Below, one piece after another: positions 10,886 to 22,221 of a DNA stretch of 22,221 nt (the first letter of the stretch is position 1; every line of letters begins with the position of its first letter). Origin of the DNA: a virus; IMG/VR virus record IMGVR_UViG_3300009146_000043, positions 1 to 22,221 of that record; one strand, 5' to 3'. A model generated the notes under the pieces. The model had not been told where the DNA came from, did not search any database, and saw only the letters and a list, made by a program, of their open reading frames with translations. Made by a program: the position numbers and the translations under genes.

Positions 10886-11338
10886 TCAGTACTGGGTGGG
10901 GTCGGGGCAGCGGAAGTCGAGCATCACCCGGAGGGCTCGGAGGCCTTGCAGCATCGGGCTCGTGTCCAGGCTGGCGCCGTCGGGCCTGCCGAGGAACGTC
11001 AGCGTGTCCGCCCCGAAGAAGTCGATGGTCAGGGTCAGGTCGCTGTTCGACGTGACCCAGGCGAGGCGGAGGGCGTCCCACAGGGCCCACACGTCGGCGC
11101 CGTCGGTCGTCAAGTCCCCGAGGGCCGGGCCGATCGTCAGGTCGAACCCCAGGTGGCGGACGTCCATGTAGTCACGCTGGCCGATGGCGCCGTGGTCGTT
11201 GCCCTGCGTCACGTCGTTGTTGCGGACAGGCGGCGCCCCGAGGCCGACGATCCCCTGCCGTCCCCAGCAGTAGTCGGTGCCGTCCCCGAAGCTGATCGAG
11301 CGGCTGGCGATGGCCACGGTCACCCCGTCGGCGCTCAC
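10886..11338 (-). CDS. Distal tail (Dit)-like minor tail protein
   Basis: 150 residues, placed directly after the tape measure gene (GTGA overlap) as Dit proteins are. Beta strands dominate (VTVAIASRSISFGDG, LTLTIDFFGADTLTFLGRP, LRALRVMLDFRCPDP). The DxTIG and DFxG..TLxFxGRP pattern is that of the tail-tube-fold N-terminal ring domain of Dit. The galectin-like C-terminal domain of larger Dit proteins is missing. It probably forms the hexameric ring joining the tube to the tail tip. Many actinobacteriophages list the homologue simply as 'minor tail protein'. Confidence 0.77.
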   Translation of the reverse strand: MSADGVTVAIASRSISFGDGTDYCWGRQGIVGLGAPPVRNNDVTQGNDHGAIGQRDYMDVRHLGFDLTIGPALGDLTTDGADVWALWDALRLAWVTSNSDLTLTIDFFGADTLTFLGRPDGASLDTSPMLQGLRALRVMLDFRCPDPTQY

Positions 11339-14300
11339 CCCACGCTCCCCTGCAGAGCGAACGTGACCTGTCGGCCCACGAGGTCGGCCTGCTCCCGGGG
11401 CGAGGCGCCCGGCGGGACCGGCACCACGATGTCACCGCTGAACTCAATCGTCGTCGTGCCCGGAGAGGCCCCGAGGATTGCCGGAGAGGCCCCGAACGGC
11501 GGAGACAGGGAGAGCGCCTGCCCGGCGGCCTGCGTTGCAGTCGGCAGAGCTCGTGTGAACTCTGACAGGTCCGGAGGGACCAGCCCCTCCGCCAGGCCGA
11601 TGTTGAATCCGGCGGCCACGTCCCCGCCGATCTGCATCATCACCCGGGACGGGCTCCCGAGCTTGAACCCGGCCCCGAACACTCCCAGCGTGGCGTCCAC
11701 GACAGCCTGAGCGGCGGCCCTGATGGCGGCGATGCTGTTCTCCAGGCCCTCTTGGGTGCCCTCCCCCACGCCCTCGCCGATGGCGATGGACCGGAGGCGG
11801 GCCTCGGCGGCGATGGCGTCGAGCTCGGCGAAGAATGCCTCGTCACCCTGCGCCAGAGCGGCGGCCAGCCGGGGGCCGACAGTCTCGGCGACCTGGGGGC
11901 CGAACAGGTTCTCAGCCTCCTGGTTGGCCTCCTCCACGAGCCGGATCGTGCCGTCCGTGATGCGGGTGGCGAACCCCCGCACCCGGGCCTCGGCGGTGTC
12001 CTCCTGGAGGGCGATGAAGTCGAAGCGGGTCTCCATGTCCGCCAGGGCGGCGTCAGAGGCGGCGGCGGCCTCAGCGGCGAGCCCGGCGGCCCCCACCCCC
12101 TGGTTGGCGAACGTGGAGGCGAGGTCGGTGGCGCCCCGGGCGATCAGCTTCTGGAGGTTGATCGTGAAAGCGGCGGCGTCGGCGGTCTGCTTGGCGAAGT
12201 TGTCGAGAAAGGCGTCAACACTGTCTTTCGCCTCGTCGCCGAACGTGGTGGCGAAGGCGTCCTGCACGCCCCCCAGCCCCTCGGCGAAGGCGTCCCCGAG
12301 CTCCCGGGCCTGGTCGGCGAGCTTGCCCAGGTTCTCGTGGAGGTCCTCCACGGGGATGTTGGTCAGGGCCGACACCTCGGCGAACTGCTGCTCGGTGTCG
12401 GTGCCCCGCAGGAAGGCCAGGGTCAGGTCGTTCATCGCCTCTCGGGCGGCCACGATGGGGTCCACGTCGATGCCCACGTCCGCCCGGGCGGACGTGAAAG
12501 CGGCGATGGCGTCGGCCCCTTGGAAGCCCAGTTGCAGAGCCTCCTCCCGGGTGATGCCCAGCTGGACGGCGAGGTCATCGGCCCCGGCGGCCGTCTCGTC
12601 CATGGCCGCCAGGATCGAGTCGAGCCCGATGACGGCCTCCGTCAGCTGCTTCCGCTTGAACGGGTCGATGGCCCGGTTGGCGTCCTCGGCGAGCTCGTTC
12701 CGGGCGTCGGCGACGGCGGTGAACTTGGCCGCCAGAGCATCGAAGTCGCCCTCGGCGATGGCGGCGTTGACGTCCTCCACGATGCCCCCCAGGAACTCCT
12801 CCGTCTCGCCCTGGTCGTCGGCGATCCGGTCCTGGATGATGTCGATGCCGATGGCGATACCGGCGGCAGCCGCCCCGAACTTGACGAGCTTGGCGGTCGA
12901 GGCCGGGCCGAAGGCGCTGTTGACGGCACTCCCGACCTTCCCGGCGGCGGCGGTGATCGTCCCGAACGACTGGAAAATCTTGCCCCCGATGATCAGCACG
13001 GGCCCAAGGGCGGCGGCCAGCCCGACGGCGGCGACCACGGTGGTCTGCAGCGGGCCGGGGAGCTTGGAGAACAGTTCCGCCCCCTCGGCGGCGAAGCCCA
13101 GCACCTCCGCCAACACAGGCAGGACCACGTTGCCGAAGTCGGCGAGGGCCACGTTGACCTCGGCGCTGGCCTTGGCGAGGTCGGCGCTCTTGGTCTCATC
13201 GAAGGCGGCGAAGGCGGCATCCGTCTGGCCCACGGAGTCGGCCAAGTGTTCGAACACGGTGGCGGCGTCGGCCCCGTTGTTCCGGGTGAGCGCCAGCACA
13301 GCGGCGAAGCCCTCGGCGTCCTCGAACACTTGGCCGAGGGAGCCCCCGGTCCGGTCCAGGCCGTCCTTCACGTCCAGCAGCGTCGGGAGGAGCCCTTGCT
13401 CGCCCAGGCTGTCCTTCAGTGTCTCGGCGGAGAACCCGGCGGCCAACAGGGCCTCGGCGCCCTGCTGGGTGGGCTTCAGGAGCTTGTTGAATATGCCCGC
13501 TACGCCCGTGGCGCTCTGGCTGGCATCGCCCGAGATGCGGGTCAGGTAGGCGAGCGAGGCGCCCACGTCGTTGAACGAGATGCCGAGCTCTGAGGCGATA
13601 GGCAGCAGCCGACCGAACTGGGGGGCGAGGTCGGCGGCCTCCGCCTTGCCCTCCTTGACCGTGTTCACGAGGATGTCCGTGGCGTCGGCGGCCGTCAGCA
13701 CCCCGGTCCCGTAGGCGGCCAGAGCTCCGGTGACAGCCTGGGCCACCTCACGGGTCTCCCCGAGCCCGGCGGCGCCGGCACGGGCCGAGGCTTCCAGGAT
13801 GGAGAACGCCTGCTCCCCGGTGAACCCGGCGGAGAACACTGCCAGCAGCGCCTCGGACAGGTCGGTGAGGGACTTGCCTGTCTCCCCGGCCAGTTCCCTG
13901 ATCTTGGCGTTGGCCTGGTCCACCTGTTCGGCGGTGCCCCCGGCGAGGCCGATGGTCTGCGCCAGGGTGGTCTCCACGTCAGAGGCGATCCCGACGGCCT
14001 GCTTCCCGAGCAGGATCAGGGGGAGGGTGAGTCCCACGGCGAGCTTCTGCCCGGCGCCCACGAACGTGTCCCCGGCCTTGCCGATGCGGAGCAGCCGCTC
14101 CTCGGCGAGCTCGGCCTCCTGCTGGATGCGCTCGATGTCCCGGAGGAGGGGGTCGGCGTCCACGTCCACCGGCACGTCGATCCGGGCCGCCTCGCCCTGA
14201 GCCTCCAGAGCCCTGAGCGCCGATGACGCCTCGGCCGTGTTGGCGTTGACCCGGACGCCCACGTCAAGCTCGTCGGGCACCCTCCCCAGCTCGGCCTCGA

Positions 14301-14457
14301 TGTCTCGGCGGAGGTCGGCGCCCACGGTGTCGAGGGCGTCGGACAGCTGCTCGGACATCTTCCGGCCGACCCGGGTGAGGTTGATCTGCCCGAGCTCCTG
14401 GGCGAACTTGTCGTCGTCCGGCCTGATGACTACGAAGGCCTCGCCCACCACGGTCAT
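11335..14457 (-). CDS. Tape measure protein
   Basis: 1040 residues, the longest gene here. The N-terminal 130 residues are helical with VRVNANTAEASSAL and PVDVDADPLLRDIERIQ repeats typical of tape measures. Residues about 140-430 match the phage tail tape measure domain (PhageMin_Tail/TP901 type): LAQTIGLAGGTAEQV, ELAGETGKSLTDLSEAL, AVFSAGFTGEQAFSIL, SLAYLTRISGDASQSA. Hydrophobic stretches at about 470-500 (LQTTVVAAVGLAAALGPVLI) and near 530-545 fit the segments inserted in the host membrane. The C-terminus has GFKLGSPSRVMMQIG, a common tape-measure ending motif. At about 0.15 nm per residue, a general rule for helical tape measures, the tail would be near 150 nm. The ATG overlaps the chaperone stop (ATGA). 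Confidence 0.96.
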   Translation of the reverse strand: MTVVGEAFVVIRPDDDKFAQELGQINLTRVGRKMSEQLSDALDTVGADLRRDIEAELGRVPDELDVGVRVNANTAEASSALRALEAQGEAARIDVPVDVDADPLLRDIERIQQEAELAEERLLRIGKAGDTFVGAGQKLAVGLTLPLILLGKQAVGIASDVETTLAQTIGLAGGTAEQVDQANAKIRELAGETGKSLTDLSEALLAVFSAGFTGEQAFSILEASARAGAAGLGETREVAQAVTGALAAYGTGVLTAADATDILVNTVKEGKAEAADLAPQFGRLLPIASELGISFNDVGASLAYLTRISGDASQSATGVAGIFNKLLKPTQQGAEALLAAGFSAETLKDSLGEQGLLPTLLDVKDGLDRTGGSLGQVFEDAEGFAAVLALTRNNGADAATVFEHLADSVGQTDAAFAAFDETKSADLAKASAEVNVALADFGNVVLPVLAEVLGFAAEGAELFSKLPGPLQTTVVAAVGLAAALGPVLIIGGKIFQSFGTITAAAGKVGSAVNSAFGPASTAKLVKFGAAAAGIAIGIDIIQDRIADDQGETEEFLGGIVEDVNAAIAEGDFDALAAKFTAVADARNELAEDANRAIDPFKRKQLTEAVIGLDSILAAMDETAAGADDLAVQLGITREEALQLGFQGADAIAAFTSARADVGIDVDPIVAAREAMNDLTLAFLRGTDTEQQFAEVSALTNIPVEDLHENLGKLADQARELGDAFAEGLGGVQDAFATTFGDEAKDSVDAFLDNFAKQTADAAAFTINLQKLIARGATDLASTFANQGVGAAGLAAEAAAASDAALADMETRFDFIALQEDTAEARVRGFATRITDGTIRLVEEANQEAENLFGPQVAETVGPRLAAALAQGDEAFFAELDAIAAEARLRSIAIGEGVGEGTQEGLENSIAAIRAAAQAVVDATLGVFGAGFKLGSPSRVMMQIGGDVAAGFNIGLAEGLVPPDLSEFTRALPTATQAAGQALSLSPPFGASPAILGASPGTTTIEFSGDIVVPVPPGASPREQADLVGRQVTFALQGSVG

Positions 14458-15181: not shown

Positions 15182-15649
15182 TCAGAAGCGGGCTCGGAGG
15201 TCCTGGAGGGCGTCCGACAGGTAGCGGTTGGGCTGCGTCCCAGGGTGGTTCACCTGCTTGAAGCGCACCACCCGGCCGACCTTCGGCCAGTAGAACACGA
15301 GCATGGGCTTCCGGCGGGCCCGGATCACGTGCGGCGGGGTGCCCTCGTGGTGCCACAGGGCGATGGGATCCTCGCTCCCGACGAGCACCTTGACGCCCTC
15401 AGGGCCGCCCACCACCAGGCGCTTCACGATGCTGTCCCGGAGGGTGCCCGGCTTCCGCTTCCGTCTCCCGGCGAGGGGGTCTCCGGCGGCGGGCCGGTAG
15501 ACGCCCACACGGCGGCGGGCCCCGGCCTTCACGATGTCGCCAGCCACCAGCAGCGCCTTGGCGACAGGGCCGTTCGCCCCGTGGAGCACCTGATCGAGGG
15601 CACGGTTGTCGATCACGATGTGCCCGGCGAACGAGCCCTTGAGGGTCAT
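15182..15649 (-). CDS. HK97 gp10-like neck/tail-completion protein
   Basis: 155 residues. The C-terminal half has the HK97-gp10 family pattern: VGSEDPIALWHHEGTPPHVI (residues 90-109), MLVFYWPKVGRVVRFKQV and NHPGTQPNRYLSDAL (134-148). The N-terminal region (IVIDNRALDQVL...AGDIVKAGARRRVGVYR) contains the usual helix. Members act at the head-tail joint or tail end. The ATG at 15649 overlaps the previous stop (ATGA). The next gene is the tail chaperone, with only a 15-base gap, so no major tail protein lies between them as it would in the usual order. Confidence 0.85.
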   Translation of the reverse strand: MTLKGSFAGHIVIDNRALDQVLHGANGPVAKALLVAGDIVKAGARRRVGVYRPAAGDPLAGRRKRKPGTLRDSIVKRLVVGGPEGVKVLVGSEDPIALWHHEGTPPHVIRARRKPMLVFYWPKVGRVVRFKQVNHPGTQPNRYLSDALQDLRARF

Positions 15650-16182
15650 GGCAGAACGGCGACCACGAGCCCGGCGCTCAGCCGGAGCGTGGACCCGGCC
15701 AGCCCCCCGTCGGGGCCCTCCGGCGTCCAACTGATCGGCGCCCACTGGTGGATGCCGAACTTGCCTGAGGCGTCGGCCGTCAGGAGGGCGTTCATCACGT
15801 GGGCCTGGTCGGCGTACGTCACCCGGGCTGTCTCCGTCACCGACAGGGCCGAGGGGAGGTCCACCTCGCCCCCCCTGAGGTCGAGCTCGGCGGCCGACAG
15901 GTCACAGCGGACGATGGTGATGCCGATCTGGGCGGCCCGCATCGAGTGCGCCCCCTGCCGGGTGAGCGGCCCCGGCGTCGGCAGCGTCACGTCCCCCTCG
16001 TAGCCGCCCGTCCCCTCGCACCACACGGCGACAAGCTCGCAGTCCCAGGCGGGCGCCCCGTGGCTGATGACCCGGCGATCCGGGAGCAGCCACCCGTCCG
16101 TCTGGGCCGGGTTCATCTCCCAGTCCTGCAAGGCGTCGAGGAACCCCTCGCACCACGCCATCAGCCGGTTACCGGGTTGCAT
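15646..16182 (-). CDS. Putative tail-completion/connector protein
   Basis: 178 residues beginning MQPGNRLMAWCEGFLDALQD. Segments such as GAPAWDCELVAVWCEG, MRAAQIGITIVRC, YADQAHVMNALL and APISWTPEGPDGGLAGSTL resemble a conserved neck-region protein of actinobacteriophages that I recall between the adaptor and the gp10-like gene; a tail-terminator role is possible. The ATG at 16182 has GGAG four bases upstream and overlaps the preceding gene by 14 bases; an alternative ATG at 16161 lacks a good site. It is coupled to the gp10-like gene by ATGA. Family assignment is by context and partial recognition. Confidence 0.62.
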   Translation of the reverse strand: MQPGNRLMAWCEGFLDALQDWEMNPAQTDGWLLPDRRVISHGAPAWDCELVAVWCEGTGGYEGDVTLPTPGPLTRQGAHSMRAAQIGITIVRCDLSAAELDLRGGEVDLPSALSVTETARVTYADQAHVMNALLTADASGKFGIHQWAPISWTPEGPDGGLAGSTLRLSAGLVVAVLP

Positions 16183-16426
16183 TGAACTCCACCCGGGCTT
16201 GCACGATCATCGCCCGCAGAGCCGTGTCCGAGGCGTTCCGTACCCGGCGGCGGTCGTCGTCGCCCCAGTCGTCGGAGTCCACCCACCAGTTCTCGAGCAA
16301 CGCCAGAATCTCGTCCTCGGTCGCCCCGAGAGCCCGGAGGCGGACCTGCAGCTGGTCGAGGGGGCCCATCACCTCCGGCTGGATGGCCCGGGGCACAGTG
16401 TCGGGGCGGGCGGCGAACGGGTTCAC
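16169..16426 (-). CDS. Small neck-region hypothetical protein
   Basis: 85 residues, MNPFAARPDTVPRAIQPEVM followed by GPLDQLQVRLRALGATEDEI and an acidic WWVDSDDWGDDDRRRV stretch. The sequence is helical with an acidic middle. The GTG at 16426 overlaps the stop of the CDP-glycerol-transferase-like gene (GTGA), which ties the neck genes to the glycan operon. It could be a small head-tail adaptor or a scaffold-like factor; the length is short for a gp6-type adaptor. No firm family is recognised. Confidence 0.65.
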   Translation of the reverse strand: MNPFAARPDTVPRAIQPEVMGPLDQLQVRLRALGATEDEILALLENWWVDSDDWGDDDRRRVRNASDTALRAMIVQARVEFNATR

Positions 16427-17373
16427 AGGACCTCCAGCACAGCCTCGGCGGCACGGTCGGCGGCGTGCCCGTCGGTTGCACAGTAGATGCTCCGCACCAT
16501 CCGGCGGCGGTGCTCCTCCCCCTCGCCCCACAGGGCCCGGGTCAGAGCTCCGGTGAGGGCGTCGGGCCCGTCGGCCTGGGGCTGCCCCTCGGGCCACTCC
16601 CAGAAGCGGCCCCCATGCCACACGTCCCGCCGGTAGGTCGGACTGTTGAGCCAGACCACCGGCTTGCCCATGCTGGCGAACTCGGGCAGGGCCGACGTGT
16701 TATCGCCCACCAGGCAGGCCGCCCCGGCGATGTCATCCCACGTCCGGGCTGGGGTGATGTCCAGCGCATCCCACCAGCGGGCGAGCATGCCCCACGCCCG
16801 GGGGTGGCCGTGGCCGACGAGCCGGTAGCCGAGGCGCTCAACCTCGTCGGCGAAGCGGGAGAGGCCGGGCTTGAAGTGAGGGAACGCCCAGCGGGTCTCG
16901 GGCAGCAGCGGGTTGTCCCAGTGGAAGGTGAGGGCGACTGTCGGCTCTCGCCCGGGCGGGTGGGCGTGCCAGCGGTCGAGGCGGGGGTTGCCGACGGCGA
17001 CGGCTCGGGCGTCGGGGTAGCGGGCCCGCCATCGGTCGGCGACGAGCTCTGACGGGCACAGGAACAGGCGGCAGGCGTCCCACCCGTGCGACCCGGAGTA
17101 CGACCTCGACCTGATGCCCTGATAGGTCTGCCCGGCGCCGTGCTCGACCAGCACGAACTGGCGGCCGGGCAGGTTCTGCGTGTCAGCGGCGGCGGCCACC
17201 ATCACGAGCCCCGAGATTGCCCGGAGGCCGCCCCGGGGGAGGTCGGTGCCCGGTTGACCAGCCATGTAGATACCGGCCTTCCAGAACGTCCCTCGGGCGT
17301 CCTCCGGGAGCGCCTGCCAGACAGGCCACAGGTGCTCTGCGTAGTGAGGCAGGCTGGCGAAGGCGTCAATCAC
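16423..17373 (-). CDS. CDP-glycerol glycerophosphotransferase-like enzyme
   Basis: 316 residues of GT-B type resembling the Glyphos_transf (TagB/TagF) superfamily that adds polyol-phosphate units to wall polymers. Landmarks: VEHGAGQTYQG (residues 76-86, with the catalytic-type H78-G79), VAVGNPRLDRW (125-135), GHGHPR (187-192) and the donor site CLVGDNTSALPEFASMGKPVVWLN (split: DNTSALPEFA at 224-233, GKPVVW at 236-241), equivalent to 'DYSS..DFa.l.KP'. In this protein the usual Asp-Tyr-Ser-Ser is Asp-Asn-Thr-Ser. The GTG at 17373 overlaps the previous stop (GTGA). As last enzyme of the operon it could transfer a phosphate-linked unit or a sugar to a glycan on the virion. Donor is not predictable. 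Confidence 0.74.
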   Translation of the reverse strand: MIDAFASLPHYAEHLWPVWQALPEDARGTFWKAGIYMAGQPGTDLPRGGLRAISGLVMVAAAADTQNLPGRQFVLVEHGAGQTYQGIRSRSYSGSHGWDACRLFLCPSELVADRWRARYPDARAVAVGNPRLDRWHAHPPGREPTVALTFHWDNPLLPETRWAFPHFKPGLSRFADEVERLGYRLVGHGHPRAWGMLARWWDALDITPARTWDDIAGAACLVGDNTSALPEFASMGKPVVWLNSPTYRRDVWHGGRFWEWPEGQPQADGPDALTGALTRALWGEGEEHRRRMVRSIYCATDGHAADRAAEAVLEVL

Positions 17374-18422
17374 CCCTCGGCCGCCCAGGCCAGCCCCTCG
17401 ACCCACAGGTGGCGGAGGGCCTCCCAGCTGTGCGACTGGGCCCAGGCGAACGACTGCCATGCGAGGTCGGCGAGCTCCGTCTCCCCGATGGACTCCAGGA
17501 TGGCGCCCATCCGGCCCGTGTCCGGCCGGTACAGGGCGACTGGCCCGGCGGGCGTGCCGACGGCGCCGTGCAGCTGAGCGGGCAGCAGAGCGGCCGGGTA
17601 GAAGCTCCGGTTGGGCTCACAGTCGGTCATCAGGAGCGGAAGCCCGGCGGCGGCGGCCTCCTGAGCGGGGAGGCACAGCCCTCCGTACTGGCGGGGGATG
17701 ACGCACAGGTGGTGGCCGTAGTAGCCGTCCCAGTAGTGCGGCCGGTCGCCCTGCACCACGTTCAGCGTGACGGCCCGAGAGGTCTGCCGGTAGGCCGGGA
17801 CGGCGCCGTCCTGAGACAGGATCGTCACCTCCATCGGCCGTCGGGCCCGGCGCAGCACAGCCAGCAGGAGGCGGGTGCCGTTCCGGTCGCCCATGGCGAG
17901 CTTCCCGGCCGGGTGCAGCACCCGGAGGGGGCCGCCGGTGTACGGCTCGTAGGCGTCAGGGAAGCGGTCCAAGGCGACAGGGACCGGGACGAGCCTCGTG
18001 TCCGGCGGGAGCTTGTCGAGACGCCACGGGGTCGGCGCCCACCACGCCCTCGGCTTGGGGAGCCCGGGGAGCAGCGTGTGCTTGAAGAACTCGGGCATCA
18101 CGTGGACCACGGTGCCCACCGACTGGTCGTGGGCCCACTCGATCAGCCGCCAGTCGTAGGCCGTCTCGGCGGTGTAGATCACGTCGAGGCCTTCCAGCCA
18201 CTGGCGCACCTCGACCTCGTTCACGAACCCGTGGCCGTCGAAGCGGGCCACCGCCACCCTCGGGGCGAGGTCGGTGAACCTGTCGGGGTGCCAGCCGCCG
18301 AACTGCTGCGCCCCGGACATCTGCACGACCAGGATGCCCTCCGGCGCCAGGTGCCGGGCGGCCTCCCAGGTCACGTTGCCCAGGCCTCGGTTGTCGGCCC
18401 GGGCGACCACGCCCACCTTCAC
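17370..18422 (-). CDS. GT4-like glycosyltransferase
   Basis: 350 residues with GT-B architecture. The N-terminal Rossmann half starts MKVGVVARADNRGLGNVTWE (the glycine-rich acceptor-side loop) and continues with DVIYTAETAYDW and VVHVMPEFF. The C-terminal half has LRVLHPAGKLAMGDRNGT, MEVTILSQDG, and the donor-binding YGGLCLPAQEAAAAGLPLLM (residues 246-265, E255), which matches the EX7E-type loop of GT4 enzymes except that the first Glu is replaced. It lacks membrane segments and so is cytosolic. GTGA overlaps link it to both neighbours. It probably adds one sugar of a chain whose first residue comes from another enzyme in the operon. Confidence 0.82.
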   Translation of the reverse strand: MKVGVVARADNRGLGNVTWEAARHLAPEGILVVQMSGAQQFGGWHPDRFTDLAPRVAVARFDGHGFVNEVEVRQWLEGLDVIYTAETAYDWRLIEWAHDQSVGTVVHVMPEFFKHTLLPGLPKPRAWWAPTPWRLDKLPPDTRLVPVPVALDRFPDAYEPYTGGPLRVLHPAGKLAMGDRNGTRLLLAVLRRARRPMEVTILSQDGAVPAYRQTSRAVTLNVVQGDRPHYWDGYYGHHLCVIPRQYGGLCLPAQEAAAAGLPLLMTDCEPNRSFYPAALLPAQLHGAVGTPAGPVALYRPDTGRMGAILESIGETELADLAWQSFAWAQSHSWEALRHLWVEGLAWAAEG

Positions 18423-18997
18423 GGGCGGATCCCCACGAGGCTGAACGACTCGGCTGGCCTCGTGTCGATGAGCTCCCTCTCGCTGCTGGTCATGGCCGCC
18501 ACCTTCACGACCTGGAGGCCTCGGCGCTCCATCCTCTCGGCCAGGCTCTCCACGGACCAAAGGGAGCGGCGGGTGCCGTGCCACGTCACCCAGCGGAGGA
18601 GCTTGCCCTGCACGGTGGGCTCGATGTCGTCGGCGACCAGGGTCAGGATGGGGTCCACCTCGCCCGAGGTCAGCCACGTGTCGATCACCCGGAGAGGGTC
18701 GGCCTCCACGATGGCCAGTCGGCCGCCAGGCACGAGACAGGCGGCGCACTGGTCGAGCACCTGGTCGGCCTCGGTGTGGTTGAACAGGTGGAGGACGTGG
18801 TTGAGGAGCACGATGTCGCAGCGGCCGTGCCACTCGCTGAGGTCGGAGGCGTCACCGTACTCAACCCCGGGCGGCAGCACGAGCCGGGGGCCCAGGTCGG
18901 CGTCGGGCCCCTCCGGGTCGTAGTCCCACGAGCCAAGATCGACATTGACCCAGCCGTCGAGCACCTGGAGGCCGCAGCCCACGTTGAGCCGGGTCAT
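18419..18997 (-). CDS. SAM-dependent methyltransferase
   Basis: 192 residues, class I methyltransferase. Motif I is unusually close to the N-terminus: LNVGCGLQVLDGWVNVDLG (residues 4-22). DADLGPRLVLPPGVEYGDASDLSEW covers motifs II-III, CDIVLLNHVLHLF (60-72) is motif IV/post-I, and LVPGGRLAIVEADPLRV (88-104) is motif V. This type (predicted SAM methyltransferases with NVGCG...GWxNxD) is frequent in glycan-biosynthesis loci. It overlaps both neighbours (ATGA before, GTGA after). O-methylation of a sugar is the natural inference in this context; the acceptor is unknown. Confidence 0.87.
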   Translation of the reverse strand: MTRLNVGCGLQVLDGWVNVDLGSWDYDPEGPDADLGPRLVLPPGVEYGDASDLSEWHGRCDIVLLNHVLHLFNHTEADQVLDQCAACLVPGGRLAIVEADPLRVIDTWLTSGEVDPILTLVADDIEPTVQGKLLRWVTWHGTRRSLWSVESLAERMERRGLQVVKVAAMTSSERELIDTRPAESFSLVGIRP

Positions 18998-19131
18998 GCG
19001 GCCTCGCCTCGGATCAGCCGCAGCAGACGTGCTTCCTCGGCGAGCGCCCACTTCCGCATGAACTGGCGCACGACCAGATCGGTGATGCCCCGGCGGATGG
19101 CGGCCAGCTGGGCTGACGTGAGCCGGGTCAT
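18994..19131 (-). CDS. 45-residue hypothetical protein
   Basis: MTRLTSAQLAAIRRGITDLV followed by VRQFMRKWALAEEARLLRLIRGEAA: a basic, all-helical peptide. It sits between the deacetylase and the methyltransferase with ATGA overlaps on both sides, so it is translated with them. Its first four residues (MTRL) match the start of the downstream methyltransferase (MTRLN), a coincidence or a trace of duplication. It may be a small adaptor or regulator of its enzyme neighbours. No family is recognised. Confidence 0.62.
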   Translation of the reverse strand: MTRLTSAQLAAIRRGITDLVVRQFMRKWALAEEARLLRLIRGEAA

Positions 19132-19802
19132 GCGGGCTTCCAGAATCGCTCCGGGACGAACAGGCACGTCCGCCCGGCCCCATCCCCCAGCGCCCCGATG
19201 TTCGGCATCTGGGAACGGTAGGCCCTCACGGCGTGTGCCTTGGTGACCTTGCTCCCGGTGCCGATGAACCCGGGCTCCCACCCCCACGGCTTGGTGTTCG
19301 CCCGCCAGTAGTCGATGGCGGGGGCGACGAGCTCTGGCCACAGCACACGGGCCGGAAGCTCCTCGTACAGGAACATGGCCTTGCCCTTCTCCCGCACGTC
19401 ATCGGCGAGCACGTGACAGGCGATGGCGACGGCGGCGTGGTCGGGGTGCGCCAGCCCGAGCGGCGCCAACACGTCCGGGAAGCCGAGACGCCACCAGCGG
19501 TCCGCCAGATCCTCGTAGATGGCGTTCACGGAAGCGGGCCCGTACTGGCTGTCCAGATGGCCCAGGTGCTCCGCTCGGGCCCCGAGCCGGGAGAGCGCCT
19601 GGTGGTCCTCCAGCATGCGGGCGATCATCGCCTCCGTCGAGCTCATGAACCCGCACGAGCGGTCGTAGGCGGTCACCTGCGGCGGGTCGGGCACCCCGGC
19701 GAACACGGTCACCACCACGCAGTCGGGCCGCCCGGCCATCATCTGCCCGGCTGACAGCACCGCATCATCGAGGTGCGGAGAGATGACCATCAGCGGGTCC
19801 AT
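19128..19802 (-). CDS. PIG-L/LmbE-type N-acetylglucosaminyl deacetylase-like
   Basis: 224 residues. PIG-L family proteins are zinc enzymes that remove the acetyl group from GlcNAc-type substrates (for example GlcNAc-phosphatidylinositol, GlcNAc-inositol in mycothiol synthesis, or antibiotic glycosides). The metal motif SPHLDDAVLSAG (H10, D12, D13) opens the protein and the second motif LAHPDHAAV (H119, H122) supplies the third ligand. The length fits the family. The ATG at 19802 overlaps the stop of the GT/FkbM gene as TGATG. In this operon it likely deacetylates an amino sugar after transfer. The Pro in the canonical PHPDD is Leu here, a tolerated change. Confidence 0.88.
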   Translation of the reverse strand: MDPLMVISPHLDDAVLSAGQMMAGRPDCVVVTVFAGVPDPPQVTAYDRSCGFMSSTEAMIARMLEDHQALSRLGARAEHLGHLDSQYGPASVNAIYEDLADRWWRLGFPDVLAPLGLAHPDHAAVAIACHVLADDVREKGKAMFLYEELPARVLWPELVAPAIDYWRANTKPWGWEPGFIGTGSKVTKAHAVRAYRSQMPNIGALGDGAGRTCLFVPERFWKPA

Positions 19803-21589
19803 CAGTACCTCCGGCACCAGAGCAGGCCGCCCATCCGGGGGTGCCCGTGGATCGTCAAGCGGCCGTGGTCGGCGAGGCGCTGCACCATCGGCCCCCAGCG
19901 GGCCAGGTCGAGGTGGGCGAGGTGCGGCATGCCCGGCCCGTGCCACTCCATCACCAGAGTCTTGACCCGGCCCAGGCCCAGGTCGGTCAGGCCGTCGATG
20001 ATCTCGTACTCCGCCCCCTCGCAATCCAACTTCAGAACGACCTCCCCCTGGACGGACGCCAGCACGCTGTCCACGTCGAGGACAGCCACCTCCCGGCCCT
20101 CATCGGCCCGGGCCGCCAGGTCTGTCAACGTCTGGTCGGCGAGATGCGCTCCGCCCCCGTCGCCCGTCAACCAGTCAGAGCGGGCCCAGCCGCCCACAGC
20201 GGCGTTCACCGGAGTGATCCTGCCCGCCACCCGGCTCCCCTGCACGTTCTGCTCGAGAGCCCGAAACGTGTCGGGGTGGGGCTCGTACGCTCGCACGTCC
20301 CTGGCGCCCAGCATGGCCGCCAGGACAGCGAACGCCCCGAGGTTGGCGCCGATGTCGATGACCGTCGCCCCGGGCAGCCCGAGCTCGGCCATCTTGTAGT
20401 CGTCGTTGTCCCAGACCTCCTTGACGGCGTAGGAGTCGCTGACGCCCTCAGCCCACGTGAACGTGTGGCGCAGCCGCTTGGGCCGGTAGGTGCCCGTGAC
20501 GACCTTGTTGACCGTCTGGGCACCCACGCCCGGCTCGGGGCTCTCCGTCACACGAGGGGCCCCAGATGGCACGCTCCGGAGGTGACCCCGTTCCGCCGGC
20601 ACGTGGGGTCGGGGGGTCGGGGTCAGGCCGGTGGACATCTCCACGAGCTCGGCCATGCGGTGGGCGTAGGTGTCACGCTCAAGAACGAGCTTGCGACTGG
20701 CGGCGGCGTCGGCCTGGCGGAGCTCGGGGTACTCCAGGGCCCGGTCAATCTGCCGGGTCAGGTCATCGAGGTCGCCCAGGGGGTAGAGGGCGAGGTCGGG
20801 GTACATGGCGGCCAGCATCTTGCTGTGCGGGTGGATGAGGTAGCCGCCCCGGCCCAGTGTCTCGGGCACCCGGTCAGACCAGTAGCCGCCCGGGTCGTCC
20901 TCCATCCCGGCCCAGCACGAGTCGCCCACCAGGACAGGCACGGTGGCGTAGAGCTCCCCGAGGTCGGCGTTGCGGATCGGGCGGCCCTGCACGTCGGCGG
21001 GGAGCACAGCGAAGTCGGACCCGTAGGTGGCTCTCAGGTGCGCCACGACGGCGGCCCGGCGGGGGTGCCAGTCGGGGTGCGGGTAGGGGAACGAGCCGAC
21101 CAGGGCGACCTTCCACGGCCACCGCTTGGGGTTGGGGGCGTAGACCTTGTTGGCCTCGTCGGCGTCCACGCCCGGCGGCATCCAGTGGGCGTTGACCCCG
21201 TGGGCGGCCCAGTCGCCCGAGTCGGGCGTGAACAGGAGGTCAGTGCGAAAGAACGGCTCCGAGTCCACCATGCCCTCACGCTCGATCCCGAGGTAGCGGT
21301 CCAGGTGGAAGCTGACGATGGGCACCCCGGCGGCGGCCAGCTGATCGAACATGGCGGCGGCCTGTCGGGGGTCCACCCCCCACGTCCGGGTCCAGATGAA
21401 CAGGCCGGGCGGGTCGTGGGCGGGACGGCCCGGGCGGGCGGCCCCGAGCAGAGCCCGGGTCTGCTGGTCGAGGTTGGTCCTGTTCTCCTGCAGGCGGACC
21501 ACCTGATGGCCGAGCTTGTTGAGGGCGGCGGCCACGTGCACCTCGGTACACCAGGGGCGGGAGAAGTTGCCGACGTAGGCGATGCGCAT
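19802..21589 (-). CDS. Glycosyltransferase-FkbM methyltransferase fusion
   Basis: 595 residues, two enzymes in one chain. Residues 1-320 resemble CgeB-like GT-B glycosyltransferases: MRIAYVGNFSRPWCTEVHVA, IVSFHLDRYLG (91-101), KVALVGSFPYPHPDW (160-174) and the donor loop ETLGRGGYLIHPHSK (243-257), then LERDTYAHRMAELV near the end. A Pro-rich linker (322-355) leads to residues about 385-595, an FkbM-family methyltransferase: motif I TVIDIGANLGAFAVLAA (409-425), AYEPHPDTFRALEQN (434-448) and VLKLDCEGAEYEII (518-531). It is the first gene of the glycan operon, with the ATG at 21589 supported by AAGG 9 bases upstream. A longer GTG start at 21631 would lie in the terminator hairpin. Confidence 0.88.
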   Translation of the reverse strand: MRIAYVGNFSRPWCTEVHVAAALNKLGHQVVRLQENRTNLDQQTRALLGAARPGRPAHDPPGLFIWTRTWGVDPRQAAAMFDQLAAAGVPIVSFHLDRYLGIEREGMVDSEPFFRTDLLFTPDSGDWAAHGVNAHWMPPGVDADEANKVYAPNPKRWPWKVALVGSFPYPHPDWHPRRAAVVAHLRATYGSDFAVLPADVQGRPIRNADLGELYATVPVLVGDSCWAGMEDDPGGYWSDRVPETLGRGGYLIHPHSKMLAAMYPDLALYPLGDLDDLTRQIDRALEYPELRQADAAASRKLVLERDTYAHRMAELVEMSTGLTPTPRPHVPAERGHLRSVPSGAPRVTESPEPGVGAQTVNKVVTGTYRPKRLRHTFTWAEGVSDSYAVKEVWDNDDYKMAELGLPGATVIDIGANLGAFAVLAAMLGARDVRAYEPHPDTFRALEQNVQGSRVAGRITPVNAAVGGWARSDWLTGDGGGAHLADQTLTDLAARADEGREVAVLDVDSVLASVQGEVVLKLDCEGAEYEIIDGLTDLGLGRVKTLVMEWHGPGMPHLAHLDLARWGPMVQRLADHGRLTIHGHPRMGGLLWCRRY

Positions 21590-21798: not shown

Positions 21799-22221
21799 TT
21801 ACGCCTGGGCCTTCTTGGCGGCCCGGCGGGCCTTGGCGGCCTCGTTCCGCTTGATGCGCTTCGCCTCGGCGGCGGCCTCGGGGTTGACATCGCCAACCTC
21901 GGGAGCCGGGTCAACCTGGTCGCTGATGATCGACTCCAGGGCCGCCTTGCCCTCGGGGCTGTTCAACTCGGCGGCGAACTGGGTGACGGCCCCGTTCACA
22001 GCGAACGGGCTCGGGCCGATGGGCGTGACGCCCGCCTTGACGTGGGCGTCGAACATGGCCTGCCAGAACGGCTCCGCCTGCGCCCCGGTCTCCGGGTTGC
22101 TGCTGAGCACCGACAGTTGGCGGAGCAGGCTCGGGACGGTGTTGCGGGCCGAGTCGATGATCCCCCACATGAACTGGTCCACGGGGCTGAAGTGCTTGTG
22201 GTCGCTGTAGAACAGGGCGTC
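21799..22221 (-). CDS. Unidentified phage protein, 3' end only (possible virion gene)
   Basis: The frame is open from the window edge to a TAA at 21799, giving the last 140 residues. It can also be read from a GTG at 22182, but the 13 codons before it are in frame and look coding (DALFYSDHKHFSP), so the true start is probably outside. The visible part is helical (VDQFMWGIIDSARNTVPSLL, PEGKAALESIISDQV) and ends in an acidic linker and a Lys/Arg/Ala-rich helix (EAKRIKRNEAAKARRAAKKA). Its position before a strong terminator and upstream of neck and tail genes suggests a virion or assembly gene, but I do not recognise the family. Confidence 0.7.
   Translation of the reverse strand, partial: DALFYSDHKHFSPVDQFMWGIIDSARNTVPSLLRQLSVLSSNPETGAQAEPFWQAMFDAHVKAGVTPIGPSPFAVNGAVTQFAAELNSPEGKAALESIISDQVDPAPEVGDVNPEAAAEAKRIKRNEAAKARRAAKKAQA

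Follow-up and report, generated by a model that had tools for sequence, protein, structure and literature searches.

In Mycobacterium phages, the subunits of capsid and tail tube are described as bearing glycans at their C-termini (passage of PMC12619734), and capsid glycosylation is said to require gp110 in Che8, which is reported as glycosylated, and gp38 in Corndog (passages of PMC12363180); both sources cite Freeman et al. 2023. Here we analyse a 22,221-base IMG/VR virus record (IMGVR_UViG_3300009146_000043, positions 1 to 22,221; hereafter the window), probably a fragment, which gave no megablast match among 50,697 phage records. It carries an operon that encodes a glycosyltransferase (GT) fused to an FkbM methyltransferase, a PIG-L-type deacetylase, a second, separate methyltransferase, a GT4-type glycosyltransferase and a TagF-like transferase, together with a 45-amino-acid (aa) open reading frame (ORF). 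We propose, with a probability of roughly 0.7, that this operon is a phage-encoded virion glycosylation cassette. The virion is taken as the probable target because the cassette keeps a conserved place among head and neck genes, because a GT or methyltransferase gene occupies the same site in Gordonia phages, and because the major capsid protein (MCP) and major tail protein (MTP) share a C-terminal serine signature; these observations favour the virion glycan suggested in the initial annotation, which had been made from the letters of the window.

The operon is real. All its genes lie on the minus strand, the span of 16423-21589 is confirmed, and from the GT-FkbM gene to the ORF at 15182 successive genes overlap by 1, 4, 4, 4, 4, 4, 14 and 4 bases, in agreement with the initial annotation, which had reported 1-4 base overlaps within the operon and a run by GTGA into the neck/tail genes (the ORF next to the TagF-like gene, with a 4-base overlap, being 16169-16426). 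A 209-base gap lies upstream of the GT-FkbM gene, the first of the cassette. Chance does not explain the arrangement, since divergent contigs repeat the gene order. Searches by alignment led to 56 loci with the TagF-like protein and 40 with the GT domain, separate scans being made for these two and not for the GT4, FkbM or methyltransferase proteins; three TagF-like and five GT loci in which the gene caller called no gene were left out of the counts that follow. In the IMG/VR scans the closest relative is L005, a contig of lineage A that is 99.97% identical to the window, followed by lineage B, recovered from several metagenomes, with cassette proteins 58-76% identical to those of the window. 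In lineage C the cassette proteins are 43-59% identical, PIG-L is missing and GT-FkbM is no longer a fusion; in L011 it is split into two ORFs. A single pattern-based scan of GTDB genomes (169 pattern matches) yielded no relative of the TagF-like family, and in the phages collection at 1e-5 the sole TagF-like homologue is that of Rctr41k, which has a single gene between it and the capsid gene, while tblastn of the PIG-L and GT4 proteins against this collection gave no match.

PIG-L was found in lineages A, B, L018/L073, L072 and L135. It was not found in lineages C and L017, in which the rest of the cassette stays, and is therefore accessory; the separate methyltransferase was not found in L017. 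A search of IMG/VR with PIG-L alone recovered only the near-identical L005, and this was also the only contig in which tblastn found the 45-aa ORF. Thus PIG-L, which the initial annotation had counted as part of the set, is present in the window and optional across lineages, and the ORF, which it had counted as a gene, is there to be read while its status as a gene is unproven. Judged by gene content, both are accessory, the core of the cassette being GT, FkbM, GT4 and the TagF-like transferase. The 45-aa peptide was set aside as a defined part of the cassette, no relative having been found, and a gene call at L008 11739-12191 was rejected because its frame is wrong and a pair of small ORFs (96 and 51 aa) fits better.

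The initial annotation had proposed a comparison of gene order in related phages, and in six lineages (A, B, C, L017, L018/L073 and L072) the cassette core does lie between the head-tail adaptor gene and phrog_810-like or neck genes. In L063, L074 and L078 no called gene lies between the MCP gene and the GT gene that follows it, and the GT4 and TagF-like genes come some kilobases further on. Scans of the neighbours recovered not only families of portal, terminase, MCP and adaptor proteins but also further GTs and methyltransferases. For a count of this linkage, portal (phrog_12), MCP (phrog_777 and phrog_1328) and large terminase (TerL, phrog_9) genes were located in 47 records with a placed TagF-like gene; the record of L010 (G004) was left out, its locus ending before that gene. 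An MCP, portal or TerL match was present in 35 of the 47, the nearest located one being at most 2.5 kb from the TagF-like gene in 12 of the 35 and at most 6 kb in 19. At the same adaptor-tail site, Phendrix has two annotated GTs (L112 8928-10855), before relatives of the window gene at 15646 and the neck genes, and GMA2 has a methyltransferase (L113 8936-10931); no GT or methyltransferase is annotated there in Big4 or Mimi. The adaptor-to-tail site is possibly a hotspot for GT or methyltransferase genes, cultured Gordonia phages included. The small gene before the cassette was also considered as an acceptor and set aside, no relative having been found in lineage C.

A C-terminal ..LVAS is shared by the MTPs of lineages A, B, C, L017 and L073 (that of the window phage itself, read from L005, ends in ..ELVAS), and a C-terminal ..GS by the MCPs that could be read, those of B, C and L073. 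Four further records (G006, G007, G011 and G015) were read after the idea of a signature had formed: all four MCPs, ending in TGS, CGS, CSS and TAS respectively, and all three MTPs found, ending in VGS, QSS and LAS, have a terminal serine. Expressed as [GASC]S, the motif fits the phrog_777 MCPs of the TagF-like record set in 12 of 12 records from 11 genotypes, while its first form, [GAC]S, fits 11 of 12 (G004 is included although its contig ends inside the cassette); MCPs of another family, phrog_1328, fit either form in four of four cases. The capsid and tail proteins of Rctr41k end in ..AEGS and ..LPGS. Among the proteins of at least 100 aa encoded in these loci, 75 of 499 end in [GAC]S, and the PHROG families leading their matches are major head and major tail proteins (25 of 42 families listed); 75 length-matched others have no major head or tail family among the matches listed (25 of 68 families), phrog_240, named head protein, having two members there, and one protein may match several families in this comparison.

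Control loci were drawn from the best 80 of 593 relatives by MCP alignment, plus the earlier loci, which left 39 nonredundant loci once MCPs shorter than 250 aa, loci with less than 7 kb downstream, Che8 and D29 had been left out. The [GASC]S motif is found on the MCP in 14 of 14 GT-positive loci versus 1 of 25 GT-negative ones, and on the MTP in 12 of 12 versus 2 of 25; the first form gives 14/14 versus 1/25 for the MCP and 11/12 versus 1/25 for the MTP. L134, the sole MCP exception among the GT-negative loci, encodes both a GT and a TagF-like protein in another part of its record. Neither gene was found in any of 26 motif-negative records; 20 of the 24 motif-negative, GT-negative loci were searched as whole records (L114, L172, L176 and L186 were left out). 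The signature is also present in cultured phages: the Che8 MCP ends in ..KTGS and its MTP in ..SDGS, and both proteins end in GS in Phendrix, GMA2 and Sixama, each of which has a relative of the Che8 gp110 family. The query for this family was Phendrix gp80, which does recover Che8, and the window record was not part of that search. Big4, Mimi and D29, whose proteins do not fit the motif (the MCP and MTP of D29 end in GEG and GGA), yielded no such relative. Sixama, with GS on both MCP and MTP, has no GT at the adaptor-tail site, its gp110 relative lying elsewhere. L121 was tried as the contig carrying the window phage's MCP and rejected, as its DNA overlaps neither L005 nor the window. Among the capsid proteins themselves, the MCPs of L008 (3807-5552) and L011 (621-2411) begin with a long stretch that contains Pro-Glu repeats and precedes the capsid domain, and the Rctr41k capsid gene (L003 8625-11243), annotated as capsid and protease, also matches an immunoglobulin-like major tail profile.

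The enzyme identities proposed in the initial annotation were borne out in two ways. The window proteins match Glyco_trans_1_2, FkbM (35.4 bits versus a cut-off of 22.7), PIG-L (36.9 versus 28.2) and Methyltransf_23 above the Pfam cut-offs, whereas the GT4-like and CDP-glycerol-transferase-like enzymes do not pass in Pfam and were recognised by fold models. The HLDD and HPDH motifs are kept in all four PIG-L copies, and the solved structures closest in sequence to the PIG-L copy are deacetylases of glycopeptide sugars, Dbv21 at the top. The GT4 protein, with a Pfam match below cut-off, is modelled with a GT4 fold that resembles many enzymes, PimA, BshA and MshA among them; an 11-row GT4 alignment matched 7qsg in a PDB search, and a 3-row alignment returned nothing. 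For the TagF-like protein of the window no PF04464 or other CDP-glycerol-type Pfam match was obtained, the L011 copy falls just below the PF04464 cut-off (21.5 versus 22.1 bits), and NCBIfam gave no name to it or to the GT4 protein. Its model aligns best with TagF (root-mean-square deviation 3.3 Å over 293 residues), then TarL, and UDP-GlcNAc 2-epimerases rank after these (Z 18.8); Foldseek does not separate the two groups. A 40-row profile of the family also matches the TagF-like capsule polymerase Cps3D (4.2e-4).

A cytidylyltransferase gene is present in 5 of 48 records and lies at most five genes from the TagF-like gene in each, adjoining it in L045, L049, L051 and L052 and five genes off in L047; none was found in L005 or in the lineage B and C records searched. 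For three of the four tested, the best NCBIfam model is glycerol-3-phosphate cytidylyltransferase and for the fourth a heptose-phosphate adenylyltransferase domain, all below the model cut-offs, and the solved structures nearest to the L047 protein are ethanolamine-phosphate and glycerol-3-phosphate cytidylyltransferases. Because these genes are linked to the TagF-like gene, a CDP-alcohol donor is plausible. The phosphodiester linkage that the initial annotation had offered as a perhaps is favoured by the TagF/TarL fold and the linked cytidylyltransferases, and the step itself stays conjectural.

Table 1. Features of the cassette and its surroundings in the window (pLDDT, predicted local distance difference test score; SAM, S-adenosylmethionine; Z, structural alignment score).
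Feature	Coordinates	Strand	Evidence or context
C-terminal part of gene preceding cassette	21799..22221	-	in L005, same gene comes after MTP and head-tail adaptor genes
GT (Glyco_trans_1_2) fused to FkbM methyltransferase, 595 aa	19802..21589	-	PF13524 8.1e-10, PF05050 1.5e-8; phrog_28745 3.5e-28
PIG-L-type deacetylase, 224 aa, motifs HLDD and HPDH	19128..19802	-	PF02585 6.1e-9; Dbv21 8.3e-11
45-aa ORF, no assigned function	18994..19131	-	no family match
SAM-dependent methyltransferase, 192 aa	18419..18997	-	PF13489 (Methyltransf_23) 1.3e-7; conserved in other lineages
GT4-type GT-B glycosyltransferase, 350 aa	17370..18422	-	model pLDDT 90.4; PimA Z 26.0, BshA 25.8; phrog_2170 5.8e-7
TagF/TarL-like transferase (CDP-alcohol phosphotransferase fold), 316 aa	16423..17373	-	model pLDDT 95.2; TagF Z 20.6, TarL 20.4
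Small virion-region ORF after cassette	16169..16426	-	downstream position conserved in lineages B, C and L017
phrog_810 protein of neck region	15646..16182	-	profile match 3.3e-7
Tail completion / Neck1 protein	15182..15649	-	phrog_5 5e-6
Tape measure-like protein, 1040 aa (context)	11335..14457	-	weak match within annotated tape measure gene of Rctr41k

The tape measure-like protein is conserved in L005, L007-L009 and L011.

From the observed gene content, gene order, linkage to virion genes and C-terminal signature, and from the predicted folds, we infer the reactions, acceptor residue, donor and time of expression as follows. The cassette would presumably be expressed late, together with the surrounding head and tail genes. 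Either the GT domain of GT-FkbM or GT4 would put a sugar on the C-terminal serine ([G/A/S/C]-S) of MCP and MTP, and the other GT would lengthen the glycan. FkbM and the second methyltransferase may then O-methylate it, PIG-L, where present, may strip an N-acetyl group, and the TagF-like enzyme would add a CDP-derived phospho-alcohol or a short chain of such units.

Several observations weigh against this proposal. The glycan, its mass shift and its expression are predicted here from genes alone, and the window record is without its MCP. The motif was widened from [GAC]S to [GASC]S after the G011 proteins (..CSS and ..QSS) had been seen, and in its first form it fits three of four MCPs and two of three MTPs in the four later-read records. 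A terminal serine is not exclusive to cassette phages, as the MCPs of the GT-negative loci L114, L138 and L140 end in NS, VS and LS; in Streptomyces phage Lizz the MTP (..AGS) fits the motif and the MCP (..ALS) does not, and three of nine motif-positive records, all fragments of 10-20 kb, show neither GT nor TagF-like gene. The search for relatives of Che8 gp110 found none in the records of L008, L073, L134, Rctr41k and Lizz. Part of the sequences behind the GT profiles came from the very loci compared, and several of the GT-positive ones had been detected by way of their cassette. On a tree of 63 MCPs two label changes suffice, with a Gordonia clade apart from the rest; the association therefore rests on two origins and a few other MCP families and not on the raw counts, and Fisher values ignore this kinship. 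The orientation of the TagF-like gene, on the same strand as the located gene in 35 of 35 records, counts for less because many phage contigs run mainly on one strand. Finally, separation from virion genes, which the initial annotation had counted as refuting when joined with early expression, does occur: glycosylation genes lie apart from virion genes in Che8 (gp108-110), in Sixama, in the record of L134 and in 4 of the 35 records, where the nearest located MCP, portal or TerL gene is more than 26 kb off on the contig. In L017, one of these four, the cassette adjoins tail-protein, adaptor and neck genes.

The transferases could instead decorate modified bases, as proposed for SP-15, whose putative base-modification cluster holds a CDP-glycerol glycerophosphotransferase gene (151) and GT genes according to a passage of PMC5977210. 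Tet_JBP matches occur in 5 of 32 records, four of them over the cut-off; the five include two of three lineage B records, the 30.6-kb G004 having none. In lineage B, L106 11468-14941 encodes a TET/JBP protein, an amino acid:DNA transferase (ADDT), an Asp/Arg hydroxylase and a P-loop kinase in a row; this cluster has its own amino-acid chemistry in ADDT and lies about 30 kb from the cassette. In one of the G002 and G003 records the TET gene precedes the cassette by about 30 kb and in the other it follows by about 21 kb, and this suggests a single circularly permuted genome of roughly 52 kb. In L019 (94-8996; record G007) TET lies about 4 kb before the GT of a GT-GT4-methyltransferase-TagF-like group, with a terminase gene between them, about 9 kb in total; a C5-methylase is encoded further off in the same record and also in the Rctr41k and L054 records. 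The proximity in L019, together with the widening of the motif, slightly lowered our confidence in virion glycosylation, and in the broader idea given below, and slightly raised that in DNA hypermodification. Against the latter, the 58-kb L073 and 55-kb L017 records contain the cassette and have no Tet_JBP, C5-methylase or thymidylate-synthase-type match, though divergent base-modifying enzymes could escape such family searches, and the window record, itself a fragment, gave no match to the base-oxidising or base-hydroxymethylating families tested. As decoration of DNA would also leave the capsid and tail signature unexplained, we consider it unlikely.

Somewhat more doubtful is a reading in which the cassette acts on a secreted, Thr-rich protein of the phage that has an LPxTG anchor, or on another glycan of the host surface, with superinfection exclusion as the outcome. 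Candidates for such a protein stand inside the cassette at L073 9648-10409 and L072 8200-8739, each with a signal-peptide-like start, Thr-rich repeats, LPxTG and a hydrophobic segment, which likewise speaks against the virion as target. A similar gene of lineage B (G002 16609-17166, locus L106) is far from the cassette, and the loci of lineages A, C and L017, whose records are incomplete, showed none; the L072/L073 protein may possibly be a further acceptor. That GT4 and PIG-L make a small molecule, for instance a thiol of the mycothiol or bacillithiol kind, appears very improbable: the GT4 model resembles BshA and MshA among many others and PIG-L is present in some lineages, but C and L017 keep the rest of the cassette without a detectable PIG-L, and the closeness of the PIG-L copy to glycopeptide sugar deacetylases points elsewhere.

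With virion glycosylation as the preferred reading, a broader idea can be put forward tentatively, and we hold it to be rather less probable than not: many uncultured phages may tag their capsid and tail-tube subunits with a C-terminal serine signal bearing a methylated glycan that CDP-derived phospho-alcohol units cap or extend, their virions carrying a teichoic-acid-like coat and the signal being reused by unrelated capsid families and enzyme sets. Virion glycosylation itself is already known, so far from a few mycobacteriophages, and it is the make-up of the enzyme set, larger here and encoded by uncultured phages, that is new. The passages of the related papers cited above do not mention a role of a phosphodiester-type enzyme in virion glycosylation, and no description of this enzyme combination or of the C-terminal serine signature was found in the literature as sampled in titles, the first parts of abstracts and such passages; Freeman et al. 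2023 may discuss the residue. A simple signature of this kind would predict which phages glycosylate which proteins.

Compared with described systems, the cassette shares with the SP-15 cluster a glycerophosphotransferase-type enzyme and GTs within a phage, while the enzymes of SP-15 are proposed to act on a modified base (passages of PMC5977210). TagF and TarL of teichoic acid and capsule synthesis resemble the window protein in the predicted GT-B fold over its whole length, but at 11-13% identity and below the Pfam cut-off. Chlorovirus PBCV-1 encodes GT and methyltransferase domains of its own, by which its capsid protein is decorated; this is a eukaryotic virus with an N-linked glycan, and the likeness is one of description only. 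Che8, Corndog and Myrna come closest in having phage-encoded GTs with capsid and tail tube as targets. Che8 differs in that its three GT genes (gp108-110) lie at the far genome end with no deacetylase or TagF-like neighbour annotated, and tblastn of GT-FkbM, PIG-L, TagF-like and GT4 proteins gave no match to it at 1e-5; the same four enzymes had no tblastn match in Phendrix, GMA2 and Sixama. These three phages nevertheless have an MCP and MTP related to those of the cassette phages and ending in GS, and the MCP and MTP of Che8 end in GS as in the cassette phages.

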